Below, one piece after another: positions 3,659-39,219 of a stretch of 64,000 nucleotides of DNA. The notes under the pieces were generated by a model, which saw only the letters and a program-made list of their open reading frames with translations, did no database searches and was not told where the DNA came from. Origin of the DNA: Phaeocystidibacter marisrubri (GTDB lineage Bacteria > Bacteroidota > Bacteroidia > Flavobacteriales > Schleiferiaceae); assembly GCF_008933165.1 (NCBI RefSeq), contig NZ_WBVQ01000002.1, positions 395,569 to 459,568 on the forward strand. Reading direction: 5' to 3'. The translations under genes and the position numbers were made by a program. Numbering within the stretch: the stretch's first letter is position 1; each line of letters opens with the position of its first letter.

Positions 3659-5140
3659 ATGGCTGAGCAAAACGACGACACCTCGAACACCCCAAAAGAT
3701 CCCAATAAGGATAACGCAGCAGATCCGCATGTAGAAGAACATGTTAAGGAGGAAGAGCACGCGAGACAGCAATCGAGATTTTACTTTCGCATCTTCCTTC
3801 AAACTTTTACTCGTTTCCTTAGGCAGAGATTGAGCATTATTGACAATGCTGATCCATCTTCTACCATAGAAGGCATAGAAAAGGATGTGGAATTTAGAGG
3901 GTTTAACCTGTGGATTCTCATCTTCTCCATTATCATCTGTTCCATTGGCCTGAACACCAACTCAACACCCGTTGTGATTGGAGCCATGCTTATTTCACCA
4001 CTTATGGGTCCCATCATGGGTACGGGGCTCGCGATTGGTGTAAATGATGTTGAGCTTCTCAAACGATCGCTTCGAAACTTAGGGATTGCTGTCGGCATGG
4101 CGATTATAGCTTCCACCACGTACTTTCTAATCATGCCTTTTGGCAATGAATCTGACGAACTCCTAGCGCGAACTCAACCTACCTTACTGGATGTATTAAT
4201 CGCCATTTTTGGTGGTGCTACTGGTATCCTGGCGGGTTCGCGAAGAGAGAAGAGCAATGTAATTCCAGGGGTTGCGATTGCAACGGCTTTGATGCCGCCA
4301 TTGTGTACAGCTGGGTACGGTATAGCCACTGGTGAACTGAGCTATTTCTTTGGAGCGATTTATCTCTTTTTGATCAACTCAATTTTCATTGGCTTAACAA
4401 CTACCCTTGTCGTTCGTTACTTGAAGTACCCGGTTCGCAAACTTCCCGATCCAGAGAAAGAGCGCAAGACCAAGCGCATCGTTGGTGTTACTATTTTCAT
4501 CTTCGTTCTTCCAAGTATTTACATTTTCTACAACTTGGTGATGGGGGCATTTTATGAACAAAGAGTTCGAGAATTCATCGACAATGAACTCCACTACAAA
4601 GAGACTTCTCTTGTGCGCGAGCAGTTTGTTTTTGACAAGGATAGCAGTTACCTATCCGTAGTCTTTTTGGGAAAAACCATTCCCGTAGAAGTCATTGAAT
4701 CTTGGAAAGGGAAACTCCCGAAATACAAATTAGACAAACTCGATTTTCACGTATTCCAAGGCGCGGAAGTAGCCAATGAAGACGGCGGGAACTCTGCGCG
4801 TATGGCAGAGATTGTCGTGAATAGTCAGTCGCTACTCTCCGAAAAAGACAGAGAGATCCAGGCCTTAAACAATCGAATAGAGTTCATGGAAGAGCGGGGA
4901 ATTCCAAAGTCGTTGATTGCTGAAATTCTCGCTCAATACGACGATGTACTTTCCAATGCTTATGCCGGTCAGTTGACGCAATCTGCGTTGAGCAACGACA
5001 CCATCTGCACGGTTTTCTTGCAATTCAAGAACGATATTTCCATCCCAGAAGAACGCGTGGAAGAATACACCAACCGAATCAGTCGATGGCTAGAAACACG
5101 TGGCCTATCCGACAGCGTGTGGGTTAGCTCCATCAATTGA
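3659..5140 (+). CDS. DUF389 (TIGR00341-type) membrane protein
   Basis: A 493-residue inner-membrane protein. A polar, acidic N-terminus (residues 1-50) is followed by the DUF389 membrane core at about 80-285, with hydrophobic helices and the conserved 'GAMLISPLMGPIMG' and 'GVAIATALMPPLC' segments. The C-terminal half (about 290-493) is soluble, with a coiled-coil-like stretch around residues 385-420. DUF389 proteins have no established function. It follows manC closely and is ended by a strong hairpin terminator. The ATG at 3659 is the first start in frame. Confidence 0.85.
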   Translation: MAEQNDDTSNTPKDPNKDNAADPHVEEHVKEEEHARQQSRFYFRIFLQTFTRFLRQRLSIIDNADPSSTIEGIEKDVEFRGFNLWILIFSIIICSIGLNTNSTPVVIGAMLISPLMGPIMGTGLAIGVNDVELLKRSLRNLGIAVGMAIIASTTYFLIMPFGNESDELLARTQPTLLDVLIAIFGGATGILAGSRREKSNVIPGVAIATALMPPLCTAGYGIATGELSYFFGAIYLFLINSIFIGLTTTLVVRYLKYPVRKLPDPEKERKTKRIVGVTIFIFVLPSIYIFYNLVMGAFYEQRVREFIDNELHYKETSLVREQFVFDKDSSYLSVVFLGKTIPVEVIESWKGKLPKYKLDKLDFHVFQGAEVANEDGGNSARMAEIVVNSQSLLSEKDREIQALNNRIEFMEERGIPKSLIAEILAQYDDVLSNAYAGQLTQSALSNDTICTVFLQFKNDISIPEERVEEYTNRISRWLETRGLSDSVWVSSIN

Positions 5141-34993: not shown

Positions 34994-35081
34994 TCCTCCC
35001 CACTTTCCTAAAACCTAAAACTCATGACGGTCATATAGGCCTACATTGAGTATCTTCACATTCGCAAAATCAACAAGGAAT

Positions 35082-37139
35082 ATGAAGAAGTTTATCCTAT
35101 CGGTCATGACGACATCTGCCGTACTGGGTGCCTCTGCTCAACAGCAGATCATGACACCCGACCTACTATGGGCTCTTGGCAGAGTTCATATGGAAGACGT
35201 GAATAAAGACGGAACCAAAGTTCTTTATGGCGTTACGCGCTATTCACTAGAAGAAAACAAAGGCGAACGAGACCTTTACATCTACGATACCGAATCGGGT
35301 ACCCCTAATTTGGTGATCGACCTTCCGGGCAGTGAAAGCTCTGCCGTATTTTTTGACGACACCCACATTGGCTATGCCAAAGACGGTCAATATTGGATTA
35401 CTGAAGTAGGTGGAACGCCTCAACCTCTCACTCAGCTTCCAGAAGGCAGTGGCAACTTTAAACCAGTTCAATTAAAGGACGGATCTTGGATGCTTCTCTT
35501 CAGCGTACGTGAGAAAGTAAGCGAGACGCCAGGTGAAATGTACCCTTCCCTTCCTAAAGCGGAATTCAAGGTTATCGATGACTTGATGTACCGTCATTGG
35601 GACCATTGGAATGACGAATTTGTCAACCATCCAGCATTTGGAAAACTAGACATCTCTGGTGCCCATCAACTCACTACAGGTGGATTTACCCACATCATGC
35701 AAGGAGAACCCTTTGAATCTCCAATTCCTCCATTTTCAGGAAGCGAAAGTTTCGCGGTGAGTCCAGATGGAAAGTACGTGGCATACAACACCAAGTTAAC
35801 CACTGGAAAGGAATTTGCTCAAAGTACAAATAGCATCATCTTCCTCTACGATACCGAAAATGGCGATGTAATTGAAGTTCCGGGAAGAAGCGGTTATGAC
35901 AGTTCGCCAAAATTCTCTCCAGACGGAAGATACCTGGCCTTTACCAGCATGGAGCACGATGGATATGAGTCGGATGAAAGCCGCCTTGCCATATATGATG
36001 TTCGCAAGAAGTTCACCGTAATTGTAGGTGCAGCCGAAGATCAGGTTGTTGAATACATCAACGATTTCCAGTGGACCTCAAAGGATGAACTCATTGTAAA
36101 TGTTCCTTTCCACGCTACTCAAAGATTGGCAAAAATTGAATTAGGCCGACTTCGTGAAGGGGAAGCGTTGAGCTATGAATTGGAATACCTAACGGATGGG
36201 GATTACAACTACCAAGGTTTCCATTATGCGAAGGGCAATCTTTTTGCCGAGCGTCAGGATATGAATCACGCTACAGAAATCTACTCGGTTACCGAAGATG
36301 CTGTTACTCCAATCACTCATGTGAACGATGGCATCTACGAGCATGTAGATATGAGCAATGTGGAGAAGAGAATGGTTCCAACATCGGATGGAAAAGAGAT
36401 GCTTACCTGGGTGATTTATCCACCAGATTTTGATCCGAACAAAAAGTACCCAACCCTACTCTATTGTCAAGGTGGGCCGCAAAGTCCTGTGAGTCAATTC
36501 TACAGCTTCCGCTGGAACTTCCAATTGATGGCCGCACAAGGCTACATTGTAGTTGCTCCAAACCGAAGAGGCGTTCAAGGCTTCGGTTCTGAATGGAACG
36601 AAGAAATCTCTAAAGATTGGGGTGGCCAGGCCATGCGCGATTATCTCGCAGCCATTGATGATGTAGCGAAAGAGCCTTACGTTGACACTGAAAACCTCGG
36701 CGCTGTTGGCGCGAGTTACGGTGGCTATAGTGTGTACATGCTCGCTGGTATCCACGAAGGAAGATTCAGTGCGTTCATCAGTCACTGTGGCCTGTTCAAC
36801 CTTGAAAGCTGGTACGGTGTAACCGAAGAATTGTTCTTTGCGAACTGGGATATCGGTGGACCGTATTGGACGAATCCAGCTCCAGAAAGTTATGCAGAAT
36901 TTAGTCCGCATAAGTATGTGCAAAACTGGGATACACCAATCTTGGTAATCCACGGTGGAAATGACTTCCGCGTTCCTGAAAACCAAGGTATGGAAGCTTT
37001 CCAAGCTGCTCAACTTCAAGGTATCGATTCTAAATTTCTTTACTTCCCTAACGAAGGTCACTGGGTACTGAGTCCGCAAAACGGCATGGTATGGCACAGT
37101 GAGTTCTTTGGGTGGTTAGCGAAACATTTGAAGGAGTAG
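35082..37139 (+). CDS. S9 family peptidase (acylaminoacyl-peptidase/DPP-like)
   Basis: A 685-residue secreted serine peptidase. The signal peptide (MKKFILSVMTTSAVLGASAQ) is followed by a beta-propeller (about 30-420, with 'SPDGKYVAYN' and 'SPDGRYLAFTSMEHD') and an alpha/beta-hydrolase domain (about 430-685). The nucleophile is in GASYGG, the Asp in 'IHGGNDFRVP' and the His in 'NEGHWVL'. It resembles S9B/S9C enzymes that release dipeptides or acyl-amino acids in the periplasm. The ATG at 35082 is the one that starts the signal peptide. The 3' UTR runs into GC-rich repeat array A. Confidence 0.92.
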   Translation: MKKFILSVMTTSAVLGASAQQQIMTPDLLWALGRVHMEDVNKDGTKVLYGVTRYSLEENKGERDLYIYDTESGTPNLVIDLPGSESSAVFFDDTHIGYAKDGQYWITEVGGTPQPLTQLPEGSGNFKPVQLKDGSWMLLFSVREKVSETPGEMYPSLPKAEFKVIDDLMYRHWDHWNDEFVNHPAFGKLDISGAHQLTTGGFTHIMQGEPFESPIPPFSGSESFAVSPDGKYVAYNTKLTTGKEFAQSTNSIIFLYDTENGDVIEVPGRSGYDSSPKFSPDGRYLAFTSMEHDGYESDESRLAIYDVRKKFTVIVGAAEDQVVEYINDFQWTSKDELIVNVPFHATQRLAKIELGRLREGEALSYELEYLTDGDYNYQGFHYAKGNLFAERQDMNHATEIYSVTEDAVTPITHVNDGIYEHVDMSNVEKRMVPTSDGKEMLTWVIYPPDFDPNKKYPTLLYCQGGPQSPVSQFYSFRWNFQLMAAQGYIVVAPNRRGVQGFGSEWNEEISKDWGGQAMRDYLAAIDDVAKEPYVDTENLGAVGASYGGYSVYMLAGIHEGRFSAFISHCGLFNLESWYGVTEELFFANWDIGGPYWTNPAPESYAEFSPHKYVQNWDTPILVIHGGNDFRVPENQGMEAFQAAQLQGIDSKFLYFPNEGHWVLSPQNGMVWHSEFFGWLAKHLKE

Positions 37140-37302
37140 GGCTGCGCAGGGGCTTTGCATTGGCTTCGCAAGGGCCTGCGGTAGGGGCGTGGCAAGGGCT
37201 TGAGGCAGGGGCTAGCGCAGGGGCATAGCAAGGACCTACGGTAGGGGCGTGGCAAGGGCTAGCGCAAGGGCCTGCGGCAGGGGCTGATGCAAGAGCCATC
37301 AA
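37139..37302. repeat. GC-rich repeat array A
   Basis: A GC-rich, non-coding stretch built from degenerate units around GCAAGGGC and yAGGGGC. A 22-nt segment is repeated exactly at 37179-37200 and 37239-37260 (60 bases apart); GCAAGGGCCTGCGG recurs at 37168 and 37264. Its first 33 bases are the reverse complement of part of array B (30 of 34 aligned positions, one 1-base gap). It lies between the S9 peptidase stop and a hairpin. Confidence 0.85.
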
Positions 37303-37314
37303 TAAAAAATATGG

Positions 37315-37358
37315 AAAGACACGGATTACTTCGAAAAGAAAAGATTCGTGTCTTTTTT
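37315..37358. terminator. hairpin terminator between array A and the four-helix gene
   Basis: AAAGACACG / CGTGTCTTT with a loop of about 20 bases; T6 follows on the plus strand and T6 lies a few bases beyond on the minus strand. It can end the S9 peptidase transcript and that of the four-helix gene. Confidence 0.7.
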
Positions 37359-37360
37359 AT

Positions 37361-37708
37361 TTAACGCCTTTTTCGCCAGTACTGGATCATTCTATAAAGC
37401 TGCAAATCAATCATTTGAAGCACTTCTACCAAACGCACTCTCCTCTGGCTATCACACCATTTAATAAACCACTTTTCATCCATCATGGCCATAACTTCTC
37501 GGCATGATCTCTTCGAGTAGTCAAAGAATTTTAGTTTCTCTCCAATCATTCGGGTCCCAAATCCTTCGTTGAAATTATTAGAAATGCTTCTTGATGCTCG
37601 TATAACCTGATCTACAAAATCTCGTTTACTAGGAGTATTCTCAAGAGGAGCGATAAGCTCAATAAGCTCATCCAATTGGATTTTAACCAGTTGTTTTAAT
37701 TCGTTCAT
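37361..37708 (-). CDS. four-helix-bundle protein (23S rRNA IVP / Avd-like)
   Basis: A 115-residue, basic, all-helical protein. The central stretch 'QVIRASRSISNNFNEGFGTR' and 'FFDYSKRSCREV' align with the four-helix-bundle family first described from intervening sequences in 23S rRNA and related to Avd of diversity-generating retroelements. The N-terminus is shorter and less typical than the usual 'LKVWQKA' opening. No reverse transcriptase or rRNA gene lies in the window. The gene is flanked on both sides by GC-rich repeat arrays of related sequence in inverted orientation, and ends 3 bases before a hairpin. Function unknown. Confidence 0.75.
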   Translation of the reverse strand: MNELKQLVKIQLDELIELIAPLENTPSKRDFVDQVIRASRSISNNFNEGFGTRMIGEKLKFFDYSKRSCREVMAMMDEKWFIKWCDSQRRVRLVEVLQMIDLQLYRMIQYWRKRR

Positions 37709-37805
37709 TCCTCAAAGCAAACCGATTCTTCATTAAAACACCTTATTGTAAATGGATACAAACGTTTACGAATGGATAATCACTCTCCCAACCTACCCAA
37801 CCGCC

Positions 37806-37965
37806 GCGAAGCCACTGCGCTAGCCACTGGCGAAGCCCAATGCGAAGCCCTTGCCTACAGCCCTTACCCCCAGCCACTGGCGAAGCCCAATGCAAAGCCC
37901 TTGCGAAGCCCTTGCCTACAGCCCTTGCCCCCAGCCACTGGCGCAGCCCCTACCCTACCCATTTT
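37806..37965. repeat. GC-rich repeat array B, inverted relative to array A
   Basis: Composed of degenerate units AGCCACTGGCGAAGCCC, AATGCrAAGCCCTTGC and CTACAGCCCTTrCCCCC. AGCCACTGGCGAAGCC starts at 37822 and 37872 (50 bases apart), and a shorter copy starts at 37933. The part 37878-37911 matches the reverse complement of 37139-37171 in array A. The array ends just before the -7-like box of the following M16 gene. Open frames through the array are read as coincidental. Confidence 0.85.
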
Positions 37966-37986: not shown

Positions 37987-39219
37987 ATGGAGTCACCACT
38001 TAACATCTTTTCTCTACCTAACGGATTGCGTGTCATTCACAAGCCTGTGAATAGTCCTGTTGCGCATTGCGGACTCATCATTAATGCGGGGTCTCGCGAT
38101 GAAAACGACAACGAACAGGGTATGGCGCATTTCATTGAGCACGTTCTTTTTAAGGGAACCAAGAAGCGAAAAGCCTATCACATTTTAAGTCGGCTTGAAG
38201 ATGTAGGTGGTGAGCTAAATGCGTACACAGGCAAAGAGGAAACCGTTCTTTATGCCTCCGTACTCAAGCGTCACCTTCCAAGGGCCATTGAATTACTGTT
38301 CGAAATTGCCTTTGAATCGGTTTATCCAGAAAAGGAGATCAAGAAAGAAAAGGATGTCATCAATGATGAAATTGCTTCTTACCTCGATTCACCGAGTGAG
38401 TTGATCTTTGACGATTTCGAAGATGTGCTTTTTAAGGGACACCCGATTGGCAGAAATATTCTGGGAACACCAGAGAGCTTAGCTGCCATCAACCGCCCGC
38501 GATTGATGGACTGGGTAGCTAAGCACTATTCCCCAGAAAGAATGGTGTTTAGTATTGTGGGTGATTATTCAGAGAAAGATATCCGCAAGTACATCGACAA
38601 ATACACTTCGGAACTACCTTCTGGAGACCCTCGCTACCACAGACGACCGATCAATGGGTACGAGCCCGTGTTCCAAGTGGAAGACAAATCGACCTATCAA
38701 ACCCATGCCATTGTTGGCAACCGTGGCTACGACATGCATCATCACGATTTAACAGCGATGATTTTGTTGAACAACCTCTTGGGTGGGCCTGGAATGAATT
38801 CACGCTTGAACCTCAATATTCGAGAGAAATACGGATTTGCCTACAACCTCGAATCCTTCTATACGGCCTACACCGATACGGGTACGTTTGGTGTGTATGT
38901 CGGAACCGATAAGGGAACCATCGATCGAAGCTTGAAACTCATCCATCGCGAACTACGCATGCTGCGTGAAAAAAAGCTTGGCGTGGTTCAGCTCAAGAAG
39001 GCTAAGCAGCAATTACTAGGACAATTTGCGCTTGGACAAGAGAGCAACTCAAGCTCAATGATTGGAATTGGTAGAACGCTGTTGCATTATGACAAGGTGG
39101 AAACTTTTGAAGAAGTGACGAAAAGAGTGGAATCGGTTTCTTCGGATGCTATCATGCGCGTTGCCAATGAAGTATTCGACCCATCTCAACTTACTACCTT
39201 GATCTACAAGGCGAAGTAA
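37987..39219 (+). CDS. M16 family zinc peptidase, cytoplasmic type
   Basis: A 410-residue protease with the inverzincin motif H48-FIE-H52 ('GMAHFIEHVLFKG') and a second M16 domain (about 165-405, with 'NLNIREKYGFAYNLES' carrying the Arg-Tyr pair). No signal peptide is seen, unlike the other M16 genes in the window. It resembles the processing-peptidase-like single-chain family found widely in Bacteroidota. The frame is open upstream through array B, but the ATG at 37987 gives the family N-terminus (PLNIFSLPNGLRV) and follows the -7 box. Confidence 0.93.
   Translation: MESPLNIFSLPNGLRVIHKPVNSPVAHCGLIINAGSRDENDNEQGMAHFIEHVLFKGTKKRKAYHILSRLEDVGGELNAYTGKEETVLYASVLKRHLPRAIELLFEIAFESVYPEKEIKKEKDVINDEIASYLDSPSELIFDDFEDVLFKGHPIGRNILGTPESLAAINRPRLMDWVAKHYSPERMVFSIVGDYSEKDIRKYIDKYTSELPSGDPRYHRRPINGYEPVFQVEDKSTYQTHAIVGNRGYDMHHHDLTAMILLNNLLGGPGMNSRLNLNIREKYGFAYNLESFYTAYTDTGTFGVYVGTDKGTIDRSLKLIHRELRMLREKKLGVVQLKKAKQQLLGQFALGQESNSSSMIGIGRTLLHYDKVETFEEVTKRVESVSSDAIMRVANEVFDPSQLTTLIYKAK

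Follow-up and report, generated by a model that had tools for sequence, protein, structure and literature searches.

A gene of the 23S rRNA intervening-sequence protein family between inverted repeat arrays in Phaeocystidibacter marisrubri: one copy of a layout that recurs across bacterial phyla

INTRODUCTION

Why should a small gene stand between two GC-rich repeat arrays that mirror one another? The question is raised by a 64,000 nt stretch of the Phaeocystidibacter marisrubri genome (contig NZ_WBVQ01000002.1, positions 395,569 to 459,568; this whole stretch is called the window below). A 115-codon gene of the 23S rRNA intervening-sequence protein (IVP) family, PF05635, lies there between an S9-type and an M16-type peptidase gene, with a repeat array on either side (Table 1). 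A first reading of the letters alone, the original prediction, had proposed that gene and arrays may be one cassette, with the arrays acting as its ends or forming a large hairpin in RNA or DNA. Intervening sequences (IVSs) with an S23p/IVP open reading frame (ORF) are found in the 23S rRNA of Leptospira, Coxiella and Brucella. PF05635 is widespread and, to our knowledge, no function has been assigned to it.

The data presented here show that inverted arms recur around IVP genes in many phyla, which suggests that gene and repeats form one compact and poorly known genetic element. We consider it fairly probable that the window carries one copy of such a widespread element, with the two inverted arrays as its ends, IVS-like and located outside rRNA.

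RESULTS AND DISCUSSION

The two arrays are inverted copies flanking an IVP gene

Comparison of array A with the reverse complement of array B gave a similarity score of 46, against 9 in the direct orientation, and 1000 dinucleotide shuffles gave a mean of 19.1 (sd 3.2) and a maximum of 33. This bears out the predicted placement of the gene between two GC-rich inverted arrays. The match of 30 in 34 positions reported between them is reached when one gap is allowed and falls to 24 of 34 in an ungapped alignment. Tandem Repeats Finder agrees with the prediction that the window has no other array of comparable kind.

The window protein scores 40.9 bits against PF05635 (cut-off 33.8) and 44.9 bits against TIGR02436 (cut-off 24). 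Its AlphaFold model (mean predicted local distance difference test score, pLDDT, 92.7) is close to the solved IVP structures 2GSC and 2RLD, with a template modelling (TM) score of about 0.8, and more distant from Avd of diversity-generating retroelements (DGRs), with a TM score of about 0.6. The original prediction had named this family and its relation to Avd. The Avd model itself found no match in the window protein, and PF05635 was the sole domain match in the gene, with no Y1 transposase. The median dN/dS ratio (nonsynonymous to synonymous substitution rates) across 64 pairs of related IVP genes is 0.11; IVP proteins are therefore under purifying selection and functional in most copies.

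Inverted arms around IVP genes are found in many phyla

PF05635 is present in 35 of 60 genomes of the bacterial family to which P. marisrubri belongs, where the flanks show by eye the same layout with different units, and in 116 of 148 genomes sampled from the phylum Bacteroidota. To measure the arms, we scored the local similarity of each upstream flank to the reverse-complemented downstream flank and took z>4 as the strict cut. Inverted arms passed at 39 of 91 loci of the bacterial family (direct orientation, 6/91), at 10 of 30 loci taken phylum-wide (direct, 2/30) and at 42 of 77 named loci (direct, 10/77) from Clostridia, Planctomycetes, Cyanobacteria, Acidobacteria, Alphaproteobacteria, Candidate Phyla Radiation (CPR) bacteria and others. 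In total 91 of 198 IVP loci passed, in comparison with none of 46 controls (0/18 ParE loci and 0/28 HEPN loci; Fisher P=2.6e-11, the IVP loci not being fully independent of one another). Chance or base composition as the source of the arms is ruled out by the shuffles, the direct-orientation scores and the two control families.

The arms also have a polarity. On the strand that reads inward to the gene, G exceeds C in 124 of the 130 loci with clear arms. The repeat units, in comparison, are mostly private to one locus. With many PF05635 genes lying inside polar inverted arrays, the protein family appears tied to one kind of element.

Where the neighbours are co-directional, the IVP gene has the sense orientation at 105 distinct sites, in comparison with 10 antisense sites. 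This bears on the idea of an invertible switch, in which recombination between the inverted arrays would flip the IVP gene on or off. Inverted arms with long near-identical stretches would suit such a switch, as would the window copy, which is antisense to both neighbours. However, the arms are degenerate, and the sense bias together with the unchanged orientation of the IVP gene in a congener (G008) makes frequent flipping unlikely, so we rejected the switch as very improbable indeed. As a separate observation on neighbours, IVP elements were seen at the nuoC-nuoD junction in both Bacteroidota and Alphaproteobacteria (L143, L148 and L165, and also L298 and L314; genes identified by reading).

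Repeat units turn over in place while the arms of each locus stay matched

The IVP tree groups the genes according to their genomic site, with 24 changes (minimum 17; mean of shuffles 53). The window gene and the IVP gene of a congener (L094) are sisters on this tree and both stand at the S9-M16 junction, where their array units differ. The own-arm scores of the two loci are 48 and 80, against 14 and 22 when the arms are swapped. Over orthologous sites as a whole, the median score is 15 for own arms and drops to 10 once the arms of divergent species are swapped (P=1e-17). Units change between species, and each locus's own arms still match. In a third congener the S9-M16 interval holds another gene and no IVP gene. 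The original prediction had pointed to this interval in relatives lacking the gene, and it proved to be only 5-35 nt long in several other members of the bacterial family.

The P. marisrubri genome has four PF05635 genes, one of them degraded by a stop codon, and the repeat units differ among the four loci. Short inverted repeats of the TTGGCA type flank one gene (L013) and of the GTGTTTTAGGGG type another (L014). The degraded gene (L015, also L003; C1:1211318) has an in-frame TAG and keeps GGGATCAGAGATCAA-type repeats on one side. A look for the window's arrays elsewhere in the genome, also suggested at the outset, did find the same repeat type again, but the three further loci have no IVP gene in the stretches that were read (solo arrays in Table 1). 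We therefore rejected a single repeat family tied to IVP genes. Because of these solo loci and the different unit in the congener, the arrays are not a fixed family tied to the window gene; it is the general anatomy that is tied.

Ordinary intergenic repeats, expanding and spreading on their own with IVP genes merely tending to sit among them, would account for both the solo arrays and the change of unit between congeners at one site. Against this stand the inverted orientation with its inward G polarity, the lack of such arms at every control gene and the better match of arms within a locus than between orthologous loci. We regard this explanation as quite improbable.

Some copies are nested in genes for DNA methyltransferases

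Eleven IVP copies (Table 1) are enclosed in a longer reading frame, which crosses both arrays and the gene without interruption and in every case corresponds to the +2 frame of the IVP gene. Among other copies only 3 of 209 are stop-free in that frame, which has a mean of 9.3 stops. The constant frame may arise because synonymous codon choice in the IVP gene can always clear the stops of the +2 frame. Seven host proteins were scanned with Pfam and all are DNA methyltransferases; six of these were also scanned with PADLOC and match type III, PglX (of the BREX defence system) or DrmMI/type IIG models. The hosts of the remaining four copies were assigned by reading, from their similarity to the scanned ones. 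Judged by these matches, antiphage-type DNA methyltransferases host all 11 nested copies, and the overlap of two coding sequences here is striking.

Orthologues of the type III-like methyltransferase without the element mostly have a linker of 14-17 residues at the site, in comparison with 159-164 residues in two occupied ones. For PglX, the PADLOC model PDLC02522 is matched at positions 268-410 by the translations of four inserts. Most genomic PglX genes align with this model at 1-270 and 414-980 and have next to nothing in the gap. PDLC02522 therefore seems to include an IVP-type insert, having apparently been built on occupied genes. A single lineage for all copies embedded in coding sequences was unsupported, with 7 changes on the tree, though this tree is poorly resolved and its starred branches force only 2 changes.

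Pairing of the arms is favoured at the DNA level

The 827-nt interval with gene and arrays folds better in silico than its shuffles, both as RNA (z -6.8) and as DNA (z -5.7), so that the large hairpin originally proposed is plausible in either form. Selection for an RNA stem should leave more G.U than A.C mismatches on the sense strand. No such excess was found: the arms hold 346 G.U and 333 A.C mismatches (679 transitions; 95% interval 0.47-0.55), although the repeat register is ambiguous in places and a weak RNA effect could escape this test. Selection on an RNA stem through wobble bias thus gave no signal, and we therefore favour maintenance of the pairing at the DNA level.

This result bears directly on a transcript-level IVS, whose arms would be selected to pair in RNA so that RNase III cuts the stem, thereby removing the element from the host mRNA or insulating it there. 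Such an account gains from the strong predicted RNA fold, from the predominance of sense copies (105 of 115 sites) and from the cutting of rRNA IVSs by RNase III (PMC4990558). It is weakened by the missing G.U preference, by arm structure that is symmetric on both strands and by the nested copies, which keep the methyltransferase frame open, something needless if the element were excised. On balance we think it unlikely.

A possible mechanism and the points against it

In the mechanism that we prefer for a compact IVP element, a process acting on DNA, and not selected RNA pairing, would keep the arms of one copy alike. Candidates are template switching or gene conversion between the inverted copies, and cruciform or hairpin intermediates. 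The IVP has an Avd-like fold; it is likely to bind the arms or the hairpin that they form and may aid the persistence or movement of the element. Expression could come from host transcripts or, in an antisense copy such as that of the window, from its own leader. A broader proposal, which we offer tentatively and which could well prove wrong, is that IVP genes mark an unrecognised class of mobile element across bacteria, having private, co-evolving inverted arrays of fixed polarity as ends, an IVP that acts on them and the ability to nest in antiphage methyltransferase genes via two open overlapping frames.

Several points weigh against these readings. About half of the IVP loci fail the strict arm test, many of them having short arms by eye, and the window's own repeat type stands without an IVP gene at the solo loci. 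Movement was not seen: no target-site duplication and no recent pair of empty and occupied sites was established, and inheritance in place dominates the tree. As for the window protein, it is a divergent member with about 20% identity to typical IVPs. Binding of the arms by the IVP, like mobility and the process that keeps the arms alike, is something that we infer. The cassette proposed for the window is thus supported by the recurrence of inverted arms at IVP genes and their absence from controls; a lasting bond between this repeat type and this gene is not.

Features of the window locus

The coordinates are collected in Table 1. The hairpin next to the IVP stop codon looks like a bidirectional terminator; a consensus scan did not flag it, perhaps owing to its long loop. 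A leader-like stretch that appears to resemble the one containing TAAACGTTT also precedes the IVP gene of the congener (L094). No reverse transcriptase was recognised, by reading, among the neighbouring ORFs.

Table 1. Features of the window locus, solo arrays in the same genome and nested IVP copies
Feature	Position	Strand	Description
Array A	37140..37302	none	Degenerate 11-12 nt GC-rich units, GGGGCTTCGCA-like; + strand G-rich, that is, inward to the gene
Array B	~37803..37960	none	Units of the array A kind, inverted; + strand C-rich
IVP gene (PF05635/TIGR02436)	37361..37708	-	115 aa + stop; predicted four-helix bundle like 2GSC/2RLD
Hairpin	37315..37355	none	12-nt arms, 92% complementary; T-run on either strand; adjoins IVP stop
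Leader	37709..37802	-	From array B to the IVP start codon; contains TAAACGTTT
S9-type peptidase gene, host flank	35046..37139	+	TAG stop codon (37137-37139) directly followed by array A
M16-type peptidase gene, host flank	37987..39219	+	Start codon (37987) 26 nt from the end of array B
Solo array	C1:685724-686249 (L016, about 3721-4260)		>500 nt; window's repeat type, no nearby IVP gene
Solo array	C3:6624 (L017)		Window's repeat type, no nearby IVP gene
Solo array	C2:526525 (L018)		Window's repeat type, no nearby IVP gene
Nested copies	L025, L141, L157, L166, L229, L232, L251, L272, L281, L297, L308		IVP copies within a longer reading frame

Comparison with known systems

We found no description of such anatomy outside rRNA in the literature, which is weak evidence since most subscription papers lay outside the search. 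The related four-helix fold is shared with Avd of DGRs, but neither a reverse transcriptase nor a template or variable repeat was seen near the window gene. REPIN/RAYT systems and bacterial interspersed mosaic elements (BIMEs) likewise combine inverted short repeats with one small gene family. However, the IVP is no known transposase, and its arrays are degenerate, tandem and private to a locus, in contrast with one genome-wide palindrome; the window's repeat type occurs at only three further places and is not a dispersed family. The intergenic heptamers of Beggiatoaceae, such as TAACTGA, are short tandem units of similar look, but they are reported as direct repeats, mostly upstream of genes, and S23/IVP genes are not mentioned in their description (PMC4679880). 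The arms of one nested copy (L281) contain TCAGTTA-type units, the reverse complement of these TAACTGA repeats.

For the nested copies the nearest precedent comes from a phage DNA methylase (PMC11855218). The insertion in it, named the ShiLan domain, is in frame and free of stops and conceals an HNH endonuclease in another frame. The nested IVP copies are similarly stop-free in the methylase frame, with a gene hidden in another frame. They differ in that the hidden gene encodes an IVP and not an HNH endonuclease, in being bounded by inverted arrays and in having defence methyltransferases of bacteria as hosts. The copy in the window differs further, since it is intergenic and no host frame runs through it.

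Finally, the 23S rRNA IVS of Coxiella has an IVP-family ORF, complementary ends, excision by RNase III and GACAGAT heptamer repeats beside the ORF (PMC4990558). The window element shares with rRNA IVSs the protein family, the inverted complementary ends around the IVP ORF and the short tandem repeats. It is unlike them in lying outside rRNA, between two peptidase genes, in its long locus-specific arrays and in being antisense to its neighbours. Free-standing loci of this kind are IVS-like in anatomy and fall outside the rRNA class. The 23S rRNA IVS may be the same kind of element, residing in a transcript that tolerates cutting. The array anatomy thus connects PF05635 with the long-standing enigma of the rRNA IVSs and offers the arms and their hairpins as concrete substrates to test.
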